From an uncultured Porphyromonadaceae bacterium (lineage in GTDB: Bacteria; Bacteroidota; Bacteroidia; Bacteroidales; Muribaculaceae), in assembly GCA_947166165.1 (NCBI GenBank), contig CAMVDK010000002.1, forward strand, positions 1 to 37,133: 37,133 nt of DNA. The letters are read 5' to 3'. A program made the position numbers and the translations under genes. The notes under the pieces are model-generated. The model was given only the letters and a program-made list of their open reading frames with translations, was not told the origin of the DNA and searched no databases. Below, piece by piece: positions 12,599 to 31,919 of the stretch (position 1 is the first letter of the stretch; each line of letters begins with the position of its first letter).

Positions 12599-12616
12599 GC
12601 ATAAACAGTGATTGCG

Positions 12617-12648
12617 ATGCCGGGGCGCGCAACCCCGTGTCCCGGCAT
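12617..12648 (+). terminator. Terminator-like hairpin closing the four-gene Sus-like operon
   Basis: ATGCCGGG (12617-12624) / CCCGGCAT (12641-12648). Confidence 0.45.
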
Positions 12649-12709
12649 TCAAATAACCAAAAACAGATTTTTTAATTCACCCTTTTTATTAACTAAACTT
12701 TTTGCAACT

Positions 12710-14554
12710 ATGAAAAAGAGTTTACTTTTTGCAGCTGCGCTGTCGCTGGCCGTTGTGGCTAACGCTCAGGTAGCTCGCAGTGCTGGCGCCGCCACGCAGT
12801 CCAAGGCTGTGGCCACCCAGCAGATGAAGAACGCTCAGATCGAGCACCGCTCGGCTCAGCGTGCCACCGCCGCCTTCGCGCCCCGCGCCAAGAAGGCTGT
12901 GCCCAACAACTACGCATACTATCTGCGTCCGAAGGGCACCATGTATGTGAACTGGGACAAGACCGGTAGCGGCTACATCATGCCGTTCGTCAACACCAAG
13001 CCTTACGACGAGGTGACTTGGCGCAACATGTCGACCGCCACTGGCGCTTCGGAGTGGGGTTATTGGCTGTTCAGCGTCGAGGATCAAGCCCGCGACTCGA
13101 TGACCTACGTTGGCAAGGACCTGACCGTGCGCTATGGCTATGAGTATGAAGACGTGCCCTACCTGACCGTCAGAGGCGCTACCAACAACCCCTACACCTT
13201 GAGTGGCTACCGCGTGAACCGCACCACCGGTGCCATCGAGAGCACTGCTAATTGCGGTGTGATTGCTGTGCCCAACTCGATGGAGTGTTTCAGCGATCAG
13301 GAGACCAACTTGCTGGCTTCGGCTCACTACTATGGCTCGAGCAACCGCTTCGGCACCGAGATGTATGGTTGGACTTACTACAGTGGCGCCCCGGGTCCCG
13401 ACTACGATCCCGATGCTCCCGCCGATCAGCAGGACCGCAGTGGCTACTGGTTCGGTAAGAACTACGGCGACTGGAACGTGTTCGGTTGCGGTTTTGAGAA
13501 ACCCGTCTCGCCCTATGTGCTGAACAAGATCTACTTCTGGGCCACCAGCGTTGAGGTGAGCGAGGATGTGGAGCTCGAGGCCCGCGTCTACCGCGTTGGC
13601 GACGAACTGCCCGCCTACAGCGACACCACCGTTGCCCGCATCGATCCGGCTATGCTCAACGAGGAGAACCTGATCGCCACCGGCCGCACCACCATCACCA
13701 CCGACATGAACGAGGACGGCAGCCCCCTCCTTGAGTTCACCCTCTATGAGACCGATCCCGAGCTGGGCATCGAGTATGAGACCACCCCGCAGATCAACGA
13801 CGCTATCGTGATTCTGATCGTCGGTATGGACCAGGATGCCATCGTTAGCATGTCGGGTCTTGTCACCAACGACGAGGAAGACGAGGGTGTTGGCGAGGTC
13901 ACCTACATGGGCCAGCAGCAGGACGGCGTGATCACCGCCTGCATTGGTCTCAACAACTTCTTCACCAGCGGTGAGCTGAAGGTTGGTAGCTCGATCCTGC
14001 TCGACGTCACCCGTCCGTTCATGACCTTCAACTACACCTTCGAAGAGGGTGAGTACACCTTCCCCAAGGAGGGTGGCAAGCTGGCTTACAGCTTCTCGGA
14101 TGGCACTACGATCGAGGGCATCGACTTCTATGCCACCAGCCCCAAGGCTGACTGGACCGTGACCACCGTCGAAGGCAACGAGGTGCCCGACTGGCTGACC
14201 ATCACGCTGACCGACGAAGAGAAGGACGGCGAGTTCAGCGGCGTTGTCAACGCTGCTGTCACCGCTGCTGCTCTGCCCAACAACCTGCCTGGCCGTGAGG
14301 CTTATGTGCGCTTCGCCATCAACGGCGCCTTCATCGACTATCACTTCATCCAGGGCGAGCCCGTGGTTGGCGTGAAGGGCGATGTGAACGGCGACGGTGC
14401 TGTCGACGTCGACGACATGAACCTCGTGATCAACATCATGCTGAACAAGGGTGCCACGATGGAGGACTATCCCGCAGCCGATGTCGATGGCAGTGGTTCG
14501 GTTGATGTGGATGACATGAACATCATCATCAACATCATGCTCGGCAAGGCCTGA
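12710..14554 (+). CDS. Secreted protein of unknown function with C-terminal dockerin-like tail
   Basis: Signal peptide MKKSLLFAAALSLAVVANAQ (start at 12710 preferred over the ORF-track 12608). C-terminus GDVNGDGAVDVDDMNLVINIMLNK...ADVDGSGSVDVDDMNIIINIMLGKA (14378-14551). Confidence 0.8.
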   Translation: MKKSLLFAAALSLAVVANAQVARSAGAATQSKAVATQQMKNAQIEHRSAQRATAAFAPRAKKAVPNNYAYYLRPKGTMYVNWDKTGSGYIMPFVNTKPYDEVTWRNMSTATGASEWGYWLFSVEDQARDSMTYVGKDLTVRYGYEYEDVPYLTVRGATNNPYTLSGYRVNRTTGAIESTANCGVIAVPNSMECFSDQETNLLASAHYYGSSNRFGTEMYGWTYYSGAPGPDYDPDAPADQQDRSGYWFGKNYGDWNVFGCGFEKPVSPYVLNKIYFWATSVEVSEDVELEARVYRVGDELPAYSDTTVARIDPAMLNEENLIATGRTTITTDMNEDGSPLLEFTLYETDPELGIEYETTPQINDAIVILIVGMDQDAIVSMSGLVTNDEEDEGVGEVTYMGQQQDGVITACIGLNNFFTSGELKVGSSILLDVTRPFMTFNYTFEEGEYTFPKEGGKLAYSFSDGTTIEGIDFYATSPKADWTVTTVEGNEVPDWLTITLTDEEKDGEFSGVVNAAVTAAALPNNLPGREAYVRFAINGAFIDYHFIQGEPVVGVKGDVNGDGAVDVDDMNLVINIMLNKGATMEDYPAADVDGSGSVDVDDMNIIINIMLGKA

Positions 14555-14729: not shown

Positions 14730-15026
14730 GTAGGGGCGTGACCTGTCACGCCCGGTTGCCGGGTCAAAGGTTCGCCGAAAAACCTTCATTCTGTTGATGT
14801 TACCATTCCATTCGGTCATCCGGCCATGACAGGTCATGGCCCTACTGCCGCGCTTTTGTGCGATTGCGAATCCGTTGATGTTACCATCCTATTTGGTCAT
14901 CCGGCCATGACAGGTCATGGCCCTACTGCCGCGCTTTTGTCCGATTACCGCGTTTTTTTCCGATTGCGAATCCGTTGATGTTTCCATCCTGTTCGGTTAT
15001 CCGGCCATGACAGGTCATGGCCTTAG
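14730..15026. repeat. Cluster of four 24-bp palindromic repeat units (one forward, three reverse)
   Basis: GTAGGGGCGTGACCTGTCACGCCC at 14730-14753; GGCCATGACAGGTCATGGCCCTAC at 14822-14845 and 14903-14926; variant GGCCATGACAGGTCATGGCCTTAG at 15003-15026, within longer units (...TGCGAATCCGTTGATGTTACCATCC...GGTCATCC...CTACTGCCGCGCTTTTGT). Confidence 0.9.
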
Positions 15027-15110
15027 TGCCGCACTTTTCTTGTTTGATGTAATTTGGGGTTAGGAATATTGGCTTTGTTTTCGAAATTACGTTAAAATGA
15101 AGCGTGTTGG

Positions 15111-15225: not shown

Positions 15226-17436
15226 ATGAAAAAATTGCTTACCCTTTTGGCCGGTGGCCTGCTGACGCTGAGCGCGGTGGCCATTCCTGCCGACCCGCGT
15301 CCGCTGGTGGTGGACCAGCCCGATGGCACGCAGGTCACGCTTCGCCTGCGCGGCGACGAGTTCTATAGTTTCAGGACCACCATCGATGGCTACACGGTGC
15401 TTCGTGGTGCCAGCGGCGCGTGGGAGTATGCCCGCAGCGAGAACGGCCGCCTTCTGCCCACCGGCGTGGTGGCTCACGATGCCGCCTCGCGCACTCCCGC
15501 CGAGGTGATGCTGCTGGCGGCCACCGCGCGTGGCCTGGTCGACGTGCCGGGAGTCGGGGCGTCGAAGGTGGCGCGCGCCGAGGCGCAGTGGCCCGACCGT
15601 GTGCGCAAAATCGACCTCGACAAGTTTCATGGGCTCATCATCCTGATTGAGCCGTCGGACGTGTCGTTCAGCATGGGCGATCAAGCCAATAAGTTCTACG
15701 ACGAGATGGTCAATGCCAAGAACATGACGCAAATCAGTTTCGGCAACTATGGCTCGTGGACGGGCAGCGTGCGCGACTACTTCTACGACAACACGATGGG
15801 CGTGTTCGACCCGCATTTCGACATTGTGGGCCCGGTGAAGGTGAGCCAGGCGTCGACCACCTTCCGCAACAACAACCGCCAGGCGTTCAACGAGGCCTTG
15901 CGCAAGGTTGAGATTGACATCGACTTCACGCAGTACGACGGCGACGGCGACGGCGTGGTCGACAACGTGTGCTTCGTGGTGGCCGGCTATGGGTCGCATT
16001 CGGGCAACGATGAGGGCCTGCTGTGGCCTCACGAGAGCTCGAGGCTGGGCGATGGAGGCCGCTATGACGGCGTGAAGCTTGACAAGTATTCCTGCTCCAC
16101 TGAGATGGGCGGCACACCCTCCTATGGCTATGTGGACGGCATCGGCACCTTCTGCCATGAGTTCACCCACGTGTTGGGCTTCCCCGACCTCTACGACACC
16201 GACTATGAGCTAGGCGGCGGGCAGTCGCACGACCCTGGCGACTGGGACCTGATGGCCAGCGGCTCGTATCTGAACCGCAGCCGCACGCCGGCCGGCTATG
16301 GCATCTTTGAGCGTTATGCGCTCGGATTCGCCAATCCGCAATACATCACCGAGGTGGGCAGCTACACGCTCAACCCGCTGGGCGAGAGCAACGAGGGCCT
16401 GATTCTGCGCACGCCGCAAAACAAGGAGTACTTCATCATGGAGAACCGCCAGAAGTCGTCGAAGTGGGACAAGTATCTGCCCGGCAGCGGCATGCTGGTG
16501 ACGCGCGTCGACTCCACGACGGCCTATCTGTGGACCACCAACAAGGTGAACTGCAACCCTGCGCACATGTACTATGAGATGCTCCGCGCGGGCAACACCA
16601 CCAGCGGCTCGCGCGCCAGCGACCCCTTCCCCGGTTCGGCCGGTGTGCCGGTCATCACCAACGAGTCGACGCCCAGCCTGGTGACGTGGAGCGGAAAGCA
16701 GAACTCCTACTCGATTCTCGACATCACCTCTGCCAACGGCGTGGTGAACTTCCTGGTGGCGCAAGCCGGCGAGGAGACGATGCTCTATGAGACCTTCGAC
16801 CGCATCCCCATCACCACCACCACGACCACCGAGGCTGAGGGCGACATCGCCTCGTGGAAGCTGTCGCTGTGCCATGCGGTGCGCGTGGCAACCCGCGACC
16901 GTGCCATCGAGATGAAGAATCCCAGTGTGGCCCAGATGACCACTCCGGTCTATTGCGACGTGCGCATGGTGTCGGTGCTGGCCACCAACACCTCGGGCGA
17001 CGCCGCCAAGATTGCCCTGCAGTACAGCACCGACGGCGGCAGCAAGTGGACGTCGGCCAAGACCTACAGCGGCGCCACCACCTACAGCGTGCCAGGCACC
17101 ACCGAGCAGAATGTGTACTGGAACGTGAAACTGACCAAGGACCAGCCCGTGATGTTCCGCCTGCAGATGACCGGCGGCAGCAAGACGGCTCCCTGCATGC
17201 TCAACGACCTGATGATTTACTACACCGGCGAGCCTGGCGGCCCCGACCCGGGCATGCGTGGCGACGTGGACAACAACGGCGTGGTGGACATCGACGACAT
17301 GAACCTGATCATCAACATCATGCTCCACAAAGCCGAGGCCAGCGACTATCCCGGCCAGGCCGACGTGGACGGCAATGGCGTGGTGGACATCGACGACATG
17401 AACATCGTGATCAACATCATGCTGCACAAGGAATAA
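15226..17436 (+). CDS. M6-family (immune inhibitor A-like) metalloprotease with dockerin-like tail, paralog 1
   Basis: TFCHEFTHVLGFPDLYDTDY (HExxHxxGxxD), signal peptide; dockerin tail MRGDVDNNGVVDIDDMNLIINIMLHK...ADVDGNGVVDIDDMNIVINIMLHKE (from about 17260). Confidence 0.9.
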   Translation: MKKLLTLLAGGLLTLSAVAIPADPRPLVVDQPDGTQVTLRLRGDEFYSFRTTIDGYTVLRGASGAWEYARSENGRLLPTGVVAHDAASRTPAEVMLLAATARGLVDVPGVGASKVARAEAQWPDRVRKIDLDKFHGLIILIEPSDVSFSMGDQANKFYDEMVNAKNMTQISFGNYGSWTGSVRDYFYDNTMGVFDPHFDIVGPVKVSQASTTFRNNNRQAFNEALRKVEIDIDFTQYDGDGDGVVDNVCFVVAGYGSHSGNDEGLLWPHESSRLGDGGRYDGVKLDKYSCSTEMGGTPSYGYVDGIGTFCHEFTHVLGFPDLYDTDYELGGGQSHDPGDWDLMASGSYLNRSRTPAGYGIFERYALGFANPQYITEVGSYTLNPLGESNEGLILRTPQNKEYFIMENRQKSSKWDKYLPGSGMLVTRVDSTTAYLWTTNKVNCNPAHMYYEMLRAGNTTSGSRASDPFPGSAGVPVITNESTPSLVTWSGKQNSYSILDITSANGVVNFLVAQAGEETMLYETFDRIPITTTTTTEAEGDIASWKLSLCHAVRVATRDRAIEMKNPSVAQMTTPVYCDVRMVSVLATNTSGDAAKIALQYSTDGGSKWTSAKTYSGATTYSVPGTTEQNVYWNVKLTKDQPVMFRLQMTGGSKTAPCMLNDLMIYYTGEPGGPDPGMRGDVDNNGVVDIDDMNLIINIMLHKAEASDYPGQADVDGNGVVDIDDMNIVINIMLHKE

Positions 17437-17439
17437 TGC

Positions 17440-17620
17440 ACAATGCACAATTTCGCAATGCATAATTGAATGCACAATTTACAATGAGGCTGTTTTAGGA
17501 CTTAAGAACATAAGAGTTTAGAAAGGAACAAAAGAATCATTTTGTCGATTGGGAAAAAATAATCTTTTGTTCTTATGTCCACTCGAATATAAAGGCTTTT
17601 GTTCTTCTGTCTTCATTCGC
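17440..17620. repeat. AT-rich intergenic repeats: degenerate AATGCACAATT repeats and a GAACAAAAGA/TCTTTTGTTC hairpin
   Basis: aatgcacaatgcacaatttcgcaatgcataattgaatgcacaattt; inverted repeat GAACAAAAGA (17526-17535) / TCTTTTGTTC (17563-17572); second CTTTTGTTCTT copy just downstream. Confidence 0.65.
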
Positions 17621-17697
17621 ACAGTTCTGTGCATGATTTGAGTGTTGTGTGACTATTTAACTACTTGAACCTCAACAAACTATTATAGATTTAGAAA

Positions 17698-19908
17698 ATG
17701 AGAAGATTTCTGGCAATGTTGGCCGTGGTGGCGATGGTGCTTGGCGCCAGCGCCCGTCCGGCCCACCGTATGGCTGTGGCCATTCCGCAGCCCGACGGCA
17801 CACAGGTCACCCTGCAGCTGCACGGCGACGAGTTTTATCACTTCAGCACCACCACCGATGGCTACACCGTGATGCAGAACAGCGCGGGCTACTGGGTGTA
17901 TGCTCAAAGCGTGGGCGGCAGGTTGGTGCCCACCAGCCAGGTGGCGCACGACGCCGCTCAGCGCGACGCCGCCGAGCAGGCACTGCTGGCCGTCACGCCG
18001 CGCGGCCTGACCGACGACTTGAGCGTGGCCGACAGCAAGCGCGCCCGTGCCGCCGTGCAGGGACCGGCGCGCGCGTCGTTCGACTTCACCAAGTTCCGCG
18101 GACTCATCATCCTGGTGCAACCCAGCGACATTGAGTTCAGCATGGGCGCCGACGCCAACCGGTTCTATAACACCATCGTCAACCAGGAGGACATGACCTC
18201 GGTGGGCTTCGGCAACTATGGCTCGTGGACGGGCAGCGTGCGCGACTACTACCGCGACAATTCGATGGGCGTGTTTGCGCCTGAGTTCGACATCGTGGGC
18301 CCCATCAAGGTGAACTACAAGGCCACGCAGATTGGCAACTACTATGGCCAGGCGTTCCGCCAGGCGCTCAACAGTGCCAACGCGCAGGTCGACTACTCGA
18401 AATATGACGGCGACGGCAACGGCGAGGTAGACATGGTGTTCTTCCTCGTGGCCGGCAACACGGCCGCCGTGGAGGGTAACGAAAATCTGGGCTACCTGTG
18501 GCCTCACGCGAGCTCGGGCATCGGCGCCGGCACCTACGACGGCAAGCGCATCAGCCGCTACGCCTGCTCCACCGAGCTCAATGGCCCGGTCGACTATTCG
18601 TTTATCGACGGCATTGGCACCATCTGCCACGAGTTCACCCACGTGCTGGGCTTCCCCGACCTCTACGACGCCAACTACGCTACCGACGGCCTGGCCCACG
18701 ACCCGGGCGACTGGGACATCATGGCCGCAGGCACCGACCTCAACTACGGCCGCACGCCGGCCGGCTACAGCATCTTTGAGCGCTACACCTTCGGCTTTGC
18801 CAACCCCCAGGTGCTCAACGTGATGGGCGAGGGCGCGTACACGCTCAACTCGCTGGCCGAGAGCAACGAAGGCTTCATCCTGCGCACACCGCAGAACAAG
18901 GAGTACTTCATCATGGAGAACCGCCAGAAGACCTCGAAGTGGGATGCCTACCTGCCCGGCCACGGCATGCTGGTGACGCGCGTCGACTCCACCAACACCT
19001 ACTACTGGACCGTGAACCAGGTGAACAACAACGCCTCCCGCATGTACTACGAGCTGCTTCGTGCCGGCAACACCAGCACGGGCGCACTGGCCAGCGACCC
19101 CTTCCCCGGCACCTATGGCGTGGCCGCACTCACCAACACCACCCAGCCGAACCTGAAGACCTACAGCGGCCGTGCCTGCTCCTACATCATCACCAACATT
19201 GCCGAGAGCAATGGTGTGATTTCGTTCAACCTCAAGACACCCGGCAACGAGAAGACGCTCGTTGAGACCTTCAACCAGATTGGCGAGAGCACCGAGAACA
19301 TCTACGAGGCGCAGGGCGACATCGCGCTGTGGCGACTGGCGCAGTGCCAGAGCGTGGTGGTGGACGGCACCAACCGCGCCGTGGCGATGAAGAACCCCAG
19401 CGTGCTGCAAATGCAGGAGCCCATCTACTACAACATCGAGCAGGTGACCTTCGAGGTGAACAACACGTCGAGCGTCGCCGCCAAGATTGCGCTGCAATAC
19501 ACCGTCGACGGCGGCAAGAAGTGGAACAATGCCAAGACAAGCACGGGCGCCACATCGTTCAGCGTGGCCGGCAACGCGGCCATCACCACCTACTGGGCCG
19601 TGGAGCTGAGCAACATGCAGCCCACGCAGTTCCGCATCCAGATGACCGGCGGCAGCAAGACGGCCCCCATGCAGGTGGACAACTTCACCGTCTACTACAC
19701 CGGCGAGCAGGGACAGGGAACAACCTATGAGACTGGCGACGTGAATGGTGACGGCGTGGTTGATGTCAATGATATCAACATCCTGATTAACATCATCCTC
19801 GAGCGCGACAGCGCCGACAACTATGACGGCCGTGCCTACATCGCAGGAGGAACCACGGTGAGCATCGAAGACTTGAACATGCTGATCAACATCATGCTCA
19901 CTCAATAA
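17698..19908 (+). CDS. M6-family metalloprotease with dockerin-like tail, paralog 2
   Basis: TICHEFTHVLGFPDLYDANY; tail GDVNGDGVVDVNDINILINIILERDSADNYDGRAYIAGGTTVSIEDLNMLINIMLTQ. Confidence 0.9.
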   Translation: MRRFLAMLAVVAMVLGASARPAHRMAVAIPQPDGTQVTLQLHGDEFYHFSTTTDGYTVMQNSAGYWVYAQSVGGRLVPTSQVAHDAAQRDAAEQALLAVTPRGLTDDLSVADSKRARAAVQGPARASFDFTKFRGLIILVQPSDIEFSMGADANRFYNTIVNQEDMTSVGFGNYGSWTGSVRDYYRDNSMGVFAPEFDIVGPIKVNYKATQIGNYYGQAFRQALNSANAQVDYSKYDGDGNGEVDMVFFLVAGNTAAVEGNENLGYLWPHASSGIGAGTYDGKRISRYACSTELNGPVDYSFIDGIGTICHEFTHVLGFPDLYDANYATDGLAHDPGDWDIMAAGTDLNYGRTPAGYSIFERYTFGFANPQVLNVMGEGAYTLNSLAESNEGFILRTPQNKEYFIMENRQKTSKWDAYLPGHGMLVTRVDSTNTYYWTVNQVNNNASRMYYELLRAGNTSTGALASDPFPGTYGVAALTNTTQPNLKTYSGRACSYIITNIAESNGVISFNLKTPGNEKTLVETFNQIGESTENIYEAQGDIALWRLAQCQSVVVDGTNRAVAMKNPSVLQMQEPIYYNIEQVTFEVNNTSSVAAKIALQYTVDGGKKWNNAKTSTGATSFSVAGNAAITTYWAVELSNMQPTQFRIQMTGGSKTAPMQVDNFTVYYTGEQGQGTTYETGDVNGDGVVDVNDINILINIILERDSADNYDGRAYIAGGTTVSIEDLNMLINIMLTQ

Positions 19909-19925
19909 CACAGAATCCATAGTCG

Positions 19926-19950
19926 GGGGCGGGCCGTTGCGTCTCGCCCC
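19926..19950 (+). terminator. Weak hairpin between M6 paralogs 2 and 3
   Basis: GGGGCG (19926-19931) / CGCCCC (19945-19950). Confidence 0.35.
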
Positions 19951-19986
19951 TTGACTTTCACCAAAATTCAATAATCATTCCTCGAA

Positions 19987-22224
19987 ATGAAGAAATTATT
20001 TGCTTTGTTAACTTGTGCGGCAGCCGCGTTGCTGCTGCACGCAGTGCCTGCGCATCGCATGGCAGTCAATGTTGCCCAACCCGATGGCGACAGCCTCACC
20101 ATCAGTCTGGTGGGCGATGAGTACTATCATTACAATACCACTATCGACGGCTACACGGTCGTCAACACCGGCCACGGCTGGGAATATGCGCGTCTGGCCG
20201 GCCAACGCCTGTCGTCGACGGGTGTGCTGGCCCACAATGCCTCGCGCCGCAGCGCCAGCGAGCAGGCCCTGCTGGCCTCGCTCGGCCGCCACCTCACCGA
20301 CCGCGCCCAGGTGGAGAGCGGGCTGCAGGCCCGCCGTGCCCGCGACGCCCGCAACCAGCGGCCCAACCGCGAGCCGGTGGTGGACTACAGCAGCTTCCGC
20401 GGGCTGATTGTGCTCATCAACTTCAACGACAAGTCGTTCCTGATGGACGACCCGCACGCCTTCTACGACGACATGGTCAACACCAAGGGCTTCACGGGCT
20501 ACTACACCGGCACAAGCTGGTGGAACCGCCGCTTCAACGAGTGCTACGGCAGTATGCGCGACTACTTCTCCGATCAGTCGATGGGCGTGTTCGACCCGCA
20601 GTTCGACGTGGTGGGGCCGGTCGACGTGCCCTATTCGTGCCGCGAGTGTGGCGACAACTATTCCACCATCTTCCGCGCGGCCCTCGACGCCATCGACGAC
20701 CAGGTCGACTTCACGCGCTACGACAGCGACAGCAACGGCGAAATCGACATGGTGTTCTTCATGGTGGCCGGTTATGCGGCCAGCTACAGCGGCAACAGCG
20801 ATGACTATCTGTGGCCGCACATGAGCTACCTCTACGGCCGTGACCCGCAGAGCGGCTATTACTATTATCTGCAATACGACGGCATGTACATGGGCCGCTA
20901 TGCGTCGTCGACCGAAATCTACGGCTGGGAGTCGTATGGCATGACCGGCGCGGCGGGCATCGGCACCATGTGCCACGAGTTCAGCCACGTGCTCGGCCTG
21001 CCCGACCTCTACGACACCGACTACAGCAGCGGCGGCGGCCAGAGCAACGACCCCGGTGACTGGGACGTGATGGCCGGCGGCAGCCACGCCGACCAGGGCC
21101 GCAACCCCGTGGGCTACAGCCTGTGGGAGCGCCACGAGCTGGGATGGACCGAGCCGCAGGCCATCAATCACGCTGGCAACTACGAGCTCACCGACGTGAG
21201 CAAGAGCAACCAGGGATATGTGATGGCCACGCCGGTGGCAGGCGAGACGTTCTACTTCGAGAACCGCCAGCAGAGCAAGTGGGACAGCGCGCTGCCCGGC
21301 CACGGCATGCTGGTGGCACGCGTCGACCGCACCAACCAGGACATCTGGGACAGCAACCGCGTGAACGCCAACCCGAGCCACAATTATTACGAGCTCGTCC
21401 GCTCGGGAGGCAGTGCCGAGCGCACCACCTTCCCCGGCCCATCGGGCGTGACGGCCCTCAGCCAGGACACCGACCCCGCGCTGCTCACCTGGAACGGCAC
21501 GCCGTGCGACTTCGCGCTGAGCAACATCGCCGAGACCGGCGGCAAAATCACCTTCACCGTGGTGGCTGAGCAGCAAATGGACAACGTGGTGGAAGACTTC
21601 GAGACCATGCCCCTGACCACCGACCCGATGGCCACCGGCCTGAGCGGGCGCTTTGCCGCGTGGAACTTCACGCAGACCCTCGTGGTGCGCGACGAGCACT
21701 TCGGCTCCACGCGCGAGTGCGCCATCGCCATGCCCGGCGCGCTCGCCATGGCCACCGACGTGCAGGGCAACATCGCCCTGGTGAGCGTCGACGCCTTCAA
21801 CCCGTCGTCGACACTTGCCAAGCTGCAGCTCTACTACTCCACCGACCAGGGGGCCAGCTGGAACGCCCTGGGCGCGCAGGAAGTGCCTGCCGGCGAGACG
21901 GTGAACCTGGTGTGGCGCACCGTGCAGAAGCAGCCCGTGCGCTTCCGCCTGACGCGCACCGCCGGCAGCAAGACGGCCAACCTCTATGTCGACAACCTGG
22001 CCATAGGCTGCTACGGCGAACTCACCCACGACGAGCTGCCCGCCCTGCGAGGTGACATCGACGGCAACGGGACGGTCGACATCGAGGACGTGAACATCCT
22101 CATCAACATCATCCTCGAGCGCGACAGCGCCGACAACTACGGCGGCCGCGCCTACGTGGTTGGCGGCGACACGGTGAGCATCGAGGACGTGAACGCTCTG
22201 ATCAACATTCTGCTGGCCAACTGA
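19987..22224 (+). CDS. M6-family metalloprotease with dockerin-like tail, paralog 3
   Basis: TMCHEFSHVLGLPDLYDTDY; tail RGDIDGNGTVDIEDVNILINIILERDSADNYGGRAYVVGGDTVSIEDVNALINILLAN. Confidence 0.9.
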   Translation: MKKLFALLTCAAAALLLHAVPAHRMAVNVAQPDGDSLTISLVGDEYYHYNTTIDGYTVVNTGHGWEYARLAGQRLSSTGVLAHNASRRSASEQALLASLGRHLTDRAQVESGLQARRARDARNQRPNREPVVDYSSFRGLIVLINFNDKSFLMDDPHAFYDDMVNTKGFTGYYTGTSWWNRRFNECYGSMRDYFSDQSMGVFDPQFDVVGPVDVPYSCRECGDNYSTIFRAALDAIDDQVDFTRYDSDSNGEIDMVFFMVAGYAASYSGNSDDYLWPHMSYLYGRDPQSGYYYYLQYDGMYMGRYASSTEIYGWESYGMTGAAGIGTMCHEFSHVLGLPDLYDTDYSSGGGQSNDPGDWDVMAGGSHADQGRNPVGYSLWERHELGWTEPQAINHAGNYELTDVSKSNQGYVMATPVAGETFYFENRQQSKWDSALPGHGMLVARVDRTNQDIWDSNRVNANPSHNYYELVRSGGSAERTTFPGPSGVTALSQDTDPALLTWNGTPCDFALSNIAETGGKITFTVVAEQQMDNVVEDFETMPLTTDPMATGLSGRFAAWNFTQTLVVRDEHFGSTRECAIAMPGALAMATDVQGNIALVSVDAFNPSSTLAKLQLYYSTDQGASWNALGAQEVPAGETVNLVWRTVQKQPVRFRLTRTAGSKTANLYVDNLAIGCYGELTHDELPALRGDIDGNGTVDIEDVNILINIILERDSADNYGGRAYVVGGDTVSIEDVNALINILLAN

Positions 22225-22244
22225 CCGGCGCAAACCTAACCACA

Positions 22245-22283
22245 TTGGCCTAAGCGGCGCGGGCCCCGCACCGCTTGGGCCAA
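22245..22283 (+). terminator. Hairpin between M6 paralogs 3 and 4
   Basis: TTGGCCTAAGCGG (22245-22257) / CCGCTTGGGCCAA (22271-22283), 13-bp stem with one U-G pair. Confidence 0.5.
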
Positions 22284-22310
22284 CCAACAAATAAAAAGTA
22301 TTAAGAATAG

Positions 22311-24542
22311 ATGAAAAAACTTGTCACCTTGTTGGCCGGCGCCGTGGCAGCCCTCGCGCTGCACGCCATTCCCGCCGACCCCACGCCCGTCCGTGTCGGC
22401 CAGCCGGGCGGCGACAGCCTCACGCTCAAGCTGGTGGGCGATGAATTCTACCACTACAACGCCACTACTGACGGCTACACCGTGCTCCATACCGGGGCGG
22501 GGTGGGAGTATGCCTGCCTGACGGGCGGCCGCCTGGCCCCCACCGGCGTGCTGGCCCACGACGCCGGCCGCCGCACCGCCGCCGAGCAGAGCCTGCTGGC
22601 CACGCTCGCCCGCCACGTCACCGACCGCGCTGCGGTGCAGACGGGCATGCTCGCCCGCCGTGCACGCGACACCCGCAACCAGCGTCCCAACCGCGCCGCG
22701 GTGGTGGATTACAGCAAATTCCGCGGCCTGATCGTGCTCATCAACTTCACCGACAAGAAGTTCCTGATGAATGACCCCAATGGCTTCTACAGCGACATGG
22801 TGAACACCAAAGACTATGAAGGCTACTACACCGGCACCGGAGCCACGGCGCGTCTCAACCGGTGCACGGGCAGCATGCGCGACTACTTCTACGACCAGTC
22901 GATGGGGCAGTTCGACCCGCAGTTCGACGTGGTGGGGCCCGTCGAGGTGCCTTTCTCGTGCCGCGAGTGTGGCGAGAACTATTCCACCATCTTCCGTGCT
23001 GCCCTCGACAGCATTGATGCGCAGGTCGACTTCACCCAGTATGACAGCGACAGCGACCATGGCATCGACATGGTGTTCTTCATGGTGGCGGGCTACTCGG
23101 CCAGCTACAGCGGCAACAGCCAGGAGTACCTCTGGCCGCACATGAGCTACCTGTATGGCTACGATGCTGAACACGACCGGTGGGAGTTCCTCACCTACGA
23201 CGGCATGGCGATGGGCCGCTATGCGTCGTCGACCGAGATTTATGGTTGGGAGTCGTATGGCCAAACTGGTCCTGCGGGCATTGGCACCATGTGCCATGAG
23301 TTCAGCCACGTGCTCGGCCTGCCCGACCTCTACGACACCGACTACGAGGATGGCGGCGGCCAGAGCAACCATCCAGGCGACTGGGACGTGATGGCCGGTG
23401 GAAGCCACGTCGACCAGGGCCGCACCCCCGTGGGCTACAGCCTGTGGGAACGCAGCGAACTGGGGTGGGCGATTCCCGGCAAACTCGACGTCGAGGGGCA
23501 GTACACGCTCACCGACATCAGCAAGAGCAACGAGGGCTTCATCATGCAGTCGCCCGTCGAAGGCGAGATTTTCTACTTCGAGAACCGCCAGAACACCAAG
23601 TGGGACCGTGCGCTGCCCGGCCATGGCCTGCTCGTGGCGCGCGTCGACCGCACCAACCGCCGCATTTGGGACTGGAACCGCGTGAATGCCGACCCCAGTC
23701 ATAACTATTATGAGCTGATACGTTCGGCCTTTTCGGAGCAGAACACCACCTACCCCGGCCCGACGGGAGCCAACGAGCTGAATGCCATCAGCAATCCGCC
23801 ATTGGCCACTTGGAATGGCACGGTGTGCCCGCTGGGCCTGACGAATATTGCCGAGACCGATGGCGTGATTACCTTCGACCTCGGTTCGCTGGGCGAGCTC
23901 AACAGCGTGGTGGAGGACTTCGAGGCGATGGATACCACCGTCGATGTGAAGGTGACCGGTGTGCAGGGCAACTTTGCGGTGTGGGATTTCGTGCAGGCTA
24001 ATGTGGCCAACGACGAGCACTTCGCCTCGGCGCGTGAGTGCAAGATGGCCATGCCGTCGACCATGACAATGGTCAGCGATTTCGACGCCGACGTGTATCA
24101 AATCACCCTCGATGCCTATAATCCCTCGAGCCAGGATGCCAAGTTCCAATTGTCCTATTCGTTCGACAAGGGAGCCACGTGGAAGAGTCTGGGCAATTCT
24201 GTGACTGTGCCAGGCCTCGAGACGTCGCAACTGTCGTGGCGGCCTAAGTTCCGCCAGCCGTTCCGCTTGCGCCTCACGCGCAATGGCGGCAACAAGAACC
24301 TGCCGGTCTACATCGATAATCTCACCATCAACTTCATCGGCGAGCAGCGCGTGGCCGAGGGTGTCAAGGGCGATGTGGACGGCAACGGCGTGGTGGACGT
24401 CGACGACCTGAACATCATCATCAACGTCATGCTGCGCAAGGCCACGCTGGCCCAATGGCCCCAGGCCGACGCCGACGGCAGCGGCGAGGTGGACATCGAC
24501 GACCTGAACATCGTCATCAACATCATGGTGCACAAGGACTGA
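22311..24542 (+). CDS. M6-family metalloprotease with dockerin-like tail, paralog 4
   Basis: TMCHEFSHVLGLPDLYDTDY; tail KGDVDGNGVVDVDDLNIIINVMLRK...ADADGSGEVDIDDLNIVINIMVHKD. Confidence 0.9.
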   Translation: MKKLVTLLAGAVAALALHAIPADPTPVRVGQPGGDSLTLKLVGDEFYHYNATTDGYTVLHTGAGWEYACLTGGRLAPTGVLAHDAGRRTAAEQSLLATLARHVTDRAAVQTGMLARRARDTRNQRPNRAAVVDYSKFRGLIVLINFTDKKFLMNDPNGFYSDMVNTKDYEGYYTGTGATARLNRCTGSMRDYFYDQSMGQFDPQFDVVGPVEVPFSCRECGENYSTIFRAALDSIDAQVDFTQYDSDSDHGIDMVFFMVAGYSASYSGNSQEYLWPHMSYLYGYDAEHDRWEFLTYDGMAMGRYASSTEIYGWESYGQTGPAGIGTMCHEFSHVLGLPDLYDTDYEDGGGQSNHPGDWDVMAGGSHVDQGRTPVGYSLWERSELGWAIPGKLDVEGQYTLTDISKSNEGFIMQSPVEGEIFYFENRQNTKWDRALPGHGLLVARVDRTNRRIWDWNRVNADPSHNYYELIRSAFSEQNTTYPGPTGANELNAISNPPLATWNGTVCPLGLTNIAETDGVITFDLGSLGELNSVVEDFEAMDTTVDVKVTGVQGNFAVWDFVQANVANDEHFASARECKMAMPSTMTMVSDFDADVYQITLDAYNPSSQDAKFQLSYSFDKGATWKSLGNSVTVPGLETSQLSWRPKFRQPFRLRLTRNGGNKNLPVYIDNLTINFIGEQRVAEGVKGDVDGNGVVDVDDLNIIINVMLRKATLAQWPQADADGSGEVDIDDLNIVINIMVHKD

Positions 24543-24640: not shown

Positions 24641-26194
24641 ATGGCAATCAATCGACTACTCTTAGTGTTGTGTGCAGTGCTGTTGTGGCTGCAAGTGTCG
24701 GCTTTCGAGGTGGGAGGCGTGGCCTACGAGGTCACCTCCGGCACGAATGTCGACGTGGTGGAACGCTGGCCCATCTACGAGGGCGATGTGGTGGTTCCCG
24801 CCTCGGTGCGCTATAACGGCCAGGTGTATGCCGTGACGGGAATTGCCCGTGGTGCCTTTGCCGATGCCGAGGGTCTGACCTCCATCCGCCTGTCCGAGGG
24901 CTTGAAGTCGATCGGCATCGAAGCCTTCAAAGGCTGCATGCAGCTGCAGGAGGTGGTGGTGCCCAACAGTGTGACCGAAATCGGCCTGCGCGCCTTCTAC
25001 AACTGCGGCTGGCTGCAGCGCATCACTTTAGGCACGGGTGTGACCATGATTCCCTATGCCATGTGCATGGACTGCTACAGTCTGCGCACGGTGTCGATTC
25101 CCGACCAGGTGACCACCGTCGGCTCGTATGCCTTTGCCAACACGCCGATTGTCGAGCTTTCCATAGGCCGTGGCGTGGTCACCATCGAGTCGAACGCCTT
25201 CAGCGGCTGCAAGCAGGTGCGCCAGCTCAACATCGGCGACATGGCGCACTGGTGCGGCTTCGACTTCTATTCGCCCGACCAGAACCCGCTCTACTATGCC
25301 CGCACGTTCACGCTCAACGGCGAGGCGGTGACCAGCATCGTCGTGCCCGAGGGCGTGGAGGAACTGAAGCCCTATGCGTTTGCCTACACGTCGATCACGT
25401 CGATCACGCTGCCGCAGACGCTCAAGACGTTTCACGTGCTCAGCTGCTACCGCGCGGCGTTCGCGAGTCTCGACCTCCCCAACTCGGTGACCACCATCGT
25501 GCCGCCGGGCATCACGGTGCCCTACATCACCTCGTTGCGCTCGTTGACGATTGGCTCGGGTGTCAAGGTGCTCGAGGCCGGCACGTTCAAAAGCGCCACT
25601 AATCTGGCGGAGATCCACCTGAGCGAGGGCCTGGAGGCCATCTACGACTATGTGTTCGGCGAAACCCCTATCACCGAAATCGTGATTCCCAACTCGGTGA
25701 CCACGGTGAGCAGCGCCTTTGTGGGATGCACCAAGTTGCAGAAGGTGACGTTCGGCACTGGGCTGGAGCATCTCGATCACTTCTCGTTTCGTGGCTGTCC
25801 TAGCATCTCGGAGATTCACATCCCCATCCGCTACCCGGAGCAGATTATGAACGATGGCATAGGGCAGTTCGGCTCCATGAATTCCGAGGCCACCGATAGC
25901 GTCGACCGCGCCACCTGCGTGCTCTACGTGCCGCTGGGCAGCGCCGAGTATTACCGCAACCACCCGCTGTGGGGGCAGTTTGTCAACATCAGCGAGGAGG
26001 GCGCGTCGATGCCCGGCGATGTGGATGGCAACGGTGTGGTCGACATCGACGATGTGAACCAAGTCATCAACTGCATGATCCACAAGCCGGTGTGCGAGGG
26101 ATTCATCTTCGAGAACGCCGACTACAATGGCGACGGCGTGGTCGACATCGACGACCTGAACCTCGTCATCAACAAGATGGTGCATAAGGGCTGA
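24641..26194 (+). CDS. BspA-like leucine-rich-repeat surface protein with dockerin-like tail
   Basis: LRR_5-type repeats (LTSIRLSEGLKSIGIEAFKGCMQLQEVVVPNSVTEIGLRAFYNC...); tail PGDVDGNGVVDIDDVNQVINCMIHK...ADYNGDGVVDIDDLNLVINKMVHKG. Confidence 0.88.
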   Translation: MAINRLLLVLCAVLLWLQVSAFEVGGVAYEVTSGTNVDVVERWPIYEGDVVVPASVRYNGQVYAVTGIARGAFADAEGLTSIRLSEGLKSIGIEAFKGCMQLQEVVVPNSVTEIGLRAFYNCGWLQRITLGTGVTMIPYAMCMDCYSLRTVSIPDQVTTVGSYAFANTPIVELSIGRGVVTIESNAFSGCKQVRQLNIGDMAHWCGFDFYSPDQNPLYYARTFTLNGEAVTSIVVPEGVEELKPYAFAYTSITSITLPQTLKTFHVLSCYRAAFASLDLPNSVTTIVPPGITVPYITSLRSLTIGSGVKVLEAGTFKSATNLAEIHLSEGLEAIYDYVFGETPITEIVIPNSVTTVSSAFVGCTKLQKVTFGTGLEHLDHFSFRGCPSISEIHIPIRYPEQIMNDGIGQFGSMNSEATDSVDRATCVLYVPLGSAEYYRNHPLWGQFVNISEEGASMPGDVDGNGVVDIDDVNQVINCMIHKPVCEGFIFENADYNGDGVVDIDDLNLVINKMVHKG

Positions 26195-31736: not shown

Positions 31737-31919
31737 GTAGGGGCGTGACCTGTCACGCCTGGGGGCCGGGTCAAGGGATGATGGCATCACATTCGGTCAT
31801 CCGGCCATGACAGGTCATGGCCCTACTGCCGTGGTTGCCGAAGTGATTGCCGCGGTCGCCGGGTCAAAGGATGATGGCATCAGATTCGGTCACCTGGCCA
31901 TGATAGGTCATGGCTCTAC
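31737..31919. repeat. Second cluster of the 24-bp palindromic repeat (one forward, two reverse)
   Basis: GTAGGGGCGTGACCTGTCACGCCT (31737-31760); GGCCATGACAGGTCATGGCCCTAC (31803-31826); GGCCATGATAGGTCATGGCTCTAC (31896-31919). Confidence 0.9.

Follow-up and report, generated by a model that had tools for sequence, protein, structure and literature searches.

Tandem M6 metalloprotease genes in a Muribaculaceae genome carry dockerin-type tails of genome-wide classes

Introduction

In the cellulosomes of clostridia and ruminococci many secreted proteins carry a C-terminal dockerin, whose usual partner is a cohesin module, and the scaffolds can bear a dockerin of their own. Within one cellulosome species the dockerins are similar to one another and form groups; group 1 and group 2 dockerins from Ruminococcus flavefaciens appear in the PDB titles returned by our own structure searches. 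Outside cellulosomes, as in the glycosidases of Clostridium perfringens or in Archaeoglobus fulgidus, cohesin modules join few enzymes. Here we describe four tandem genes for M6 metalloproteases with dockerin-type tails, found in a stretch of 37,133 nucleotides (the window) that forms positions 1 to 37,133 of contig CAMVDK010000002.1 (assembly GCA_947166165.1) of an uncultured Porphyromonadaceae bacterium assigned by GTDB to the Muribaculaceae.

The proteins of this bacterium resemble those of cellulosomes in that tails of this type stand at the C-terminus of many secreted proteins, are alike within the species and form more than one class, and also in the presence of cohesin modules and, in relatives, of scaffolds with their own dockerin. 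They differ from cellulosomes in their Bacteroidota host, in a cargo made up mostly of leucine-rich repeat (LRR) proteins and peptidases and not of plant-wall enzymes, in the single diverged cohesin-fold module found per candidate anchor protein in the window's genome and in a second tail class that does without the acidic second loop. The non-cellulosomal cohesins provide the best structural matches of that cohesin-fold module, but the genome has more than 100 tails.

Dockerin modules have been described in rumen Bacteroidetes bins (PMC6071333, PMC7480376), and the accessible text of PMC7480376 calls their functional role not yet defined. Compared with the accessible text of both papers, the tail classes, the within-genome likeness of tails and the family of LRR-dockerin-cohesin anchors are features of the present analysis. 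Our literature search, which covered mainly papers outside subscription journals, turned up no description of tail classes among Muribaculaceae dockerins.

Results

Bodies and tails of the four M6 proteases

The four genes, M6_1 (15226..17436), M6_2 (17698..19908), M6_3 (19987..22224) and M6_4 (22311..24542), all lie on the + strand. Their products resemble M6 (immune inhibitor A-like) metalloproteases, as all four exceed the PF05547 cut-off and contain HEFTH or HEFSH, a HExxH motif from which catalysis is predicted, and TIGR03296 is above cut-off in both of the two proteins scanned for it; they differ from such proteases by the dockerin tail at the C-terminus. M6_1 combines a signal peptide, the peptidase, a beta region and a class I (two-loop) dockerin tail at 17260..17433 on the + strand, with scores of 44.2 bits for PF05547, 27.7 for PF00404 and 160.7 bits for TIGR03296. 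M6_4 likewise ends in a class I tail (24369..24539, +) and reaches 27.1 for PF00404, above the cut-off of 22.9. The tails of M6_2 (19735..19905, +) and M6_3 (22051..22221, +) are of the dockerin-like class II or RAY type: in M6_2 the sequence RAYIAGGTTV replaces the second calcium-type loop and in M6_3 the corresponding sequence is RAYVVGGDTV. M6_2 scores 24.1 bits for PF05547 and 20.3 for PF00404, the latter below the cut-off, and M6_3 scores 47.5 bits for PF05547 with PF00404 absent among the matches listed. In the two M6 proteins scanned, the matches did not include TIGR04183.

The bodies of the four proteases pair as (1,2) and (3,4), the core of M6_3 being sister to that of M6_4, whereas their C-terminal tails pair as (1,4) and (2,3). 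Over the whole alignment 73 informative protein sites support 12|34, 17 support 14|23 and 5 support 13|24. The single switch that fits best lies inside the tail, between columns 717 and 723 of the alignment, and was reached by none of 2000 permutations (0/2000); from column 721 onwards no site supports 12|34 and nine support 14|23. A first-pass annotation made by a model from the letters of the window had described the genes as mosaics at both ends with just this pairing of cores and tails, and for the C-terminal end its description stands. The motifs and coordinates that it gave were also right, except that gene 4 has VPFSCRECG where gene 3 has VPYSCRECG and that the tail motif INIMLHK, present twice in gene 1, is represented in gene 4 by INVMLRK...INIMVHK. 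The mosaic look is best read as the outcome of tails that keep to genome-wide classes and bodies that keep to descent.

M6_4 is the positional orthologue of a gene in a relative (locus L197 of genome G063), and in both genomes an LRR gene comes next. Over residues 1-480 M6_3, M6_4 and the G063 gene are about equidistant from each other; over residues 481-720 M6_4 and the G063 gene are closer. A duplication near the split and a later switch of the M6_3 tail to another class would fit this pattern. The class II tail of the gene-2 lineage is found in G063 as well.

Tail classes across the genome

The genome carries at least about 146 dockerin-like tails, a total that is a lower bound because the search was confined to 150 scored candidates. 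The genome contigs that were readable hold 105 C-terminal tails, and 11 of these are of class II. Class I tails have two acidic calcium loops; class II tails do not, their second loop reading RAYxxGG or similar with the acidic calcium-type residues gone. Class II is not confined to the window: besides M6_2 and M6_3 it is carried by two M6 genes of contig C27 that are more distant, by two calycin-like proteins, by one LRR_5, one Big_5, one PKD and one amidase-like protein (some of these matches lie below the Pfam cut-off) and by one small protein. When the tail of M6_3 was predicted jointly with other tails of the genome the model reached a predicted local distance difference test (pLDDT) score of 93.1, and the first 32 rows of its PDB search were dockerins or cohesin-dockerin complexes by title, with TM values up to 0.80 and a best E value of only 0.021. 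Class II tails are thus predicted to have the dockerin fold.

Two further observations concern M6 proteases elsewhere. On C27 (L274) three more distant M6 proteases stand in a row, two with class II tails and one with another tail. Several genomes of the genus hold a third M6 lineage (L248, L242, L225, L259, L252, L255, L228) with its own dockerin tail of the INxxAA...LIDMLL type, a tail class outside the window's genome.

The first-pass annotation attributed the mosaics to recombination or gene conversion among the tandem copies that moved both ends of the genes. The tandem arrangement, the tail breakpoint and a nominal signal at the N-terminal end (see below) are in accordance with such exchange, but the tails have better matches outside the array. 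The tail of M6_1 finds its best match elsewhere in the genome at 0.74, against 0.68 to M6_4; that of M6_4 reaches 0.81 on three other genes, against 0.68 to M6_1; and those of M6_2 and M6_3 are each at 0.74 to the same distant M6 gene on C27, against 0.72 to each other. The tails of genes 2 and 3 have 41 of 57 residues in common, yet only 8 of their 17 fourfold sites are equal, close to the 0.42-0.45 expected by chance.

The N-terminus

The presumed mature N-terminus reads IPADP in M6_1 (15283..15297, +) and M6_4 (22368..22382, +), and PAHRMAV is found in M6_2 (17758..17778, +) and M6_3 (20047..20067, +). This pairing, (1,4) and (2,3), had been taken as a second switch, and formally there is a signal for it: with the tail sites removed four of the first five informative sites support 14|23, which was reached by 4 of 2000 permutations. 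It comes from columns 6, 23, 24 and 26 only. The codons for PAHRMAV, which are CCG GCC CAC CGT ATG GCT GTG in M6_2 and CCT GCG CAT CGC ATG GCA GTC in M6_3, differ at all residues except the ATG methionine, and over residues 1-31 gene 3 is 57% identical to gene 4 compared with 43% to gene 2. We rejected a swap of the N-terminal ends on these two grounds, the different synonymous codons and the nearness of the N-terminal end of gene 3 to gene 4. Genes of the clade that holds genes 3 and 4 usually read PADP, and the nearest A-clade relatives of gene 1 read PANP or PACP. No exchange is therefore required to explain the IPADP of genes 1 and 4, which looks like shared background. PAH[RS]MAV is a feature of the gene-2 lineage, G061 included, and gene 3 would therefore have acquired its PAHRMAV by convergence or in an old, very short event.

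The idea that N-terminus and tail are selected together did not survive the comparison with relatives. The gene-2 orthologue of G061 has PAHSMAV together with the main tail of that genome, and the one of G063 has PANPLAV together with a RAY-type tail. We further compared 139 M6 genes, taken from 145 distinct open reading frames (ORFs) in the fetched loci of the genus, to which the count is confined, after four ORFs with no start or an open end and two C27 genes of excessive length (>=800 aa) had been dropped. With catalytic identity and genome controlled for, N-terminal identity and tail identity were negatively associated (r = -0.149; 998 of 999 permutations gave this value or a higher one). 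The RAY-type tail itself is present on 3 of the 139 genes (after PA, two have H and one has N), so that a table of the two features is uninformative. Partner specificity, which had been proposed for the N-terminus and the tail jointly, remains a good idea for the tail alone.

Synonymous-site likeness was also where gene conversion between the tandem copies failed as a candidate: for genes 2 and 3 the fourfold sites are equal at 0 of 5 over residues 20-31, in addition to the near-chance value in the tail. Together with the gene-4-like surroundings of the gene 3 N-terminus and the decoupling of the two ends in relatives, this makes us regard exchange within the array as a very improbable source of the mosaics.

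Tail likeness across the genus

Midpoint rooting divides the cores of the 139 genes into two clades of 103 and 36 genes, and pairs that cross the two clades allow tails to be compared between distant bodies. There are 43 such pairs within a genome (20 genomes) and 3665 between genomes. Tail identity is 0.654 in the same genome versus 0.433 between genomes, a difference reached by 0/2000 genome permutations. The catalytic region (0.469 versus 0.466; 297/2000 permutations) and the N-terminus (0.457 versus 0.454; 790/2000) were compared in the same way, and the beta region showed a small effect (0.353 versus 0.322; 0/2000). Tails of distantly related M6 proteases therefore resemble each other when they share a genome, and the catalytic regions and N-termini show no such likeness. 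The named contigs matched in the alignment search come mostly from rumen or gut metagenome genomes of Muribaculaceae, Prevotellaceae and unplaced Bacteroidales.

Such likeness could also be an unselected by-product of short-tract recombination that copies tails among unrelated dockerin genes all over the genome. Same-genome pairs do show a synonymous excess of tail over catalytic part of 0.042 (95% interval 0.003-0.081), and in the window's genome aligned fourfold sites of tails are equal at 0.635 compared with 0.570 at other columns. However, the excess is small and of a size found between homologues of different genomes, and tail pairs with at least 65% identity still differ at 31% of their fourfold sites. 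The excess means that occasional recombination of tails is possible; as the explanation of the likeness we consider genome-wide copying unlikely, if less so than exchange within the array.

A candidate docking partner

The genome of the window encodes a protein (L397:441-2522:-) that combines an internal dockerin with LRR_5 repeats and one additional module, and relatives of this protein were found in 60 of the 61 genomes of the genus. The model of the module has a pLDDT of 91.5. Cohesin entries fill its first 22 Foldseek rows, with a best E value of 3.6e-07, and VIA-align gave a best Z of 15.8; most of the first 38 rows of the VIA search are cohesins by title, and the few others, such as 2o4e, we take to be cohesin modules too. 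The module, which has no match to the Pfam cohesin profile PF00963, is thus predicted to have a cohesin fold. Recognisable cohesins do occur in the genus: the Pfam cohesin is above cut-off in 28 of the 61 genomes and a protein of G112 has four cohesins and a dockerin (111.6 bits). No multi-cohesin scaffold was found in the window's genome, which is 83% complete, where the scaffold alignment gave tails and some weak stretches. One cohesin module taken from a relative returned nothing useful when compared with PDB sequences. The anchors' own dockerins are closer to the M6 tails of the same genome than to those of other genomes (0.465 versus 0.410; 0/2000 permutations).

Many genomes of the genus have two or more neighbouring copies of the LRR-dockerin-cohesin-fold proteins (L397:441-2522:-, L398-L427), and their internal dockerins are of different classes. 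Two scaffold-like proteins, L366:496-2646:- and L367:1878-4076:+, start through MRHNLPSPPGEGxGVRP segments, which are probably translated repeat DNA.

The C-terminus of the anchor looks like a sorting tail of the type IX secretion system (T9SS). In another reading the dockerin-type tails would themselves be sorting or anchoring signals for one export machine that keeps them alike, and would bind no partner. They do stand at the C-terminus of secreted proteins, T9SS sorting domains are present in 61/61 and SprA in 56/61 genomes of the genus, and Pfam cohesins are few. Against this stand the predicted dockerin fold of the tail, the union of a cohesin-fold module and an internal dockerin in one protein family and the multi-cohesin proteins of relatives, and a pure sorting role seems to us quite unlikely.

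The cargo was surveyed in 66 of 89 eligible tail-bearing ORFs (of the 105), with counts drawn from the first 25 of 49 families. It includes 21 LRR_5 proteins, 6 C10, 6 M6, 5 CotH and 4 C39-like proteins, and few glycoside hydrolases. As the load is mostly LRR_5 proteins and peptidases, the system is not a plain cellulosome.

Gene neighbourhood

The M6 genes are preceded by a gene (12608..14554, +) whose product has a class I dockerin tail and no other Pfam match, and they are followed by a gene for an LRR_5 protein with a dockerin tail (24641..26194, +). A palindromic, REP-like (repetitive extragenic palindromic) intergenic repeat with the core TGACCTGTCA, often GTAGGGGCGTGACCTGTCACGCC, occurs in the window at 14739-15038 and 31746-31830. 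The window has six copies, and there are 7 matches in about 0.85 Mb of the other contigs of the genome; three of the copies form a near-tandem array of 98 nt upstream of M6_1.

Discussion

We think it probable that the tail of the M6 proteases serves as an address label of the dockerin type, whose evolution is its own and genome-wide, and that enzyme and N-terminus simply follow the descent of the gene. Well over 100 such tails are present in the genome. They divide into two classes or more, among them the main class with two loops (genes 1 and 4) and the RAYxxGG class (genes 2 and 3), and a tail would switch class now and then. The simplest way of keeping tails alike within a genome would be the need to fit shared partner modules, perhaps with some help from occasional recombination. 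The cohesin-fold modules are the candidates for binding the tails, and the LRR-dockerin-cohesin protein may serve as the surface anchor. Classes I and II could represent two specificities, in which case genes 1 and 4 would go to one partner and genes 2 and 3 to another.

Several results weigh against this view. A profile search found no Pfam cohesin in the window's genome, which is incomplete as stated above, and PF00963 is matched by only 2 of 30 aligned proteins of the anchor family. The own dockerin of the L397 anchor is unlike the M6 tails of its genome (best 0.26). No SprA was found in the window's genome at its 83% completeness, and the T9SS-like C-terminus of the anchor is not recognised by TIGR04183. 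The within-genome likeness of tails is also partial: most genes (107 of 132) find their nearest tail outside their own genome, and same-genome pairs whose cores belong to a single clade (0.563) are below the cross-clade pairs. The synonymous excess of the tails belongs here too, as it may leave a share of the likeness to recombination.

Overall we favour the reading of a cohesin-dockerin display system in a genus of rumen Muribaculaceae, with a load of mainly LRR proteins and peptidases and with at least two tail codes. More tentatively, and with the balance of probability still against the full proposal, we suggest that this Bacteroidota genus displays its peptidases and LRR proteins through at least two codes that evolve in concert, and that paralogous proteases switch code and thereby go to different partners.

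The tandem M6 genes are a natural experiment in which related catalytic bodies are joined to tails of different classes. With the cohesin-fold family present in nearly all genomes of the genus, they make both the partners of the dockerins and the choice between tail classes testable with small purified domains. If the proposal is true, closely related enzymes of one bacterium would be sent to different docking partners.

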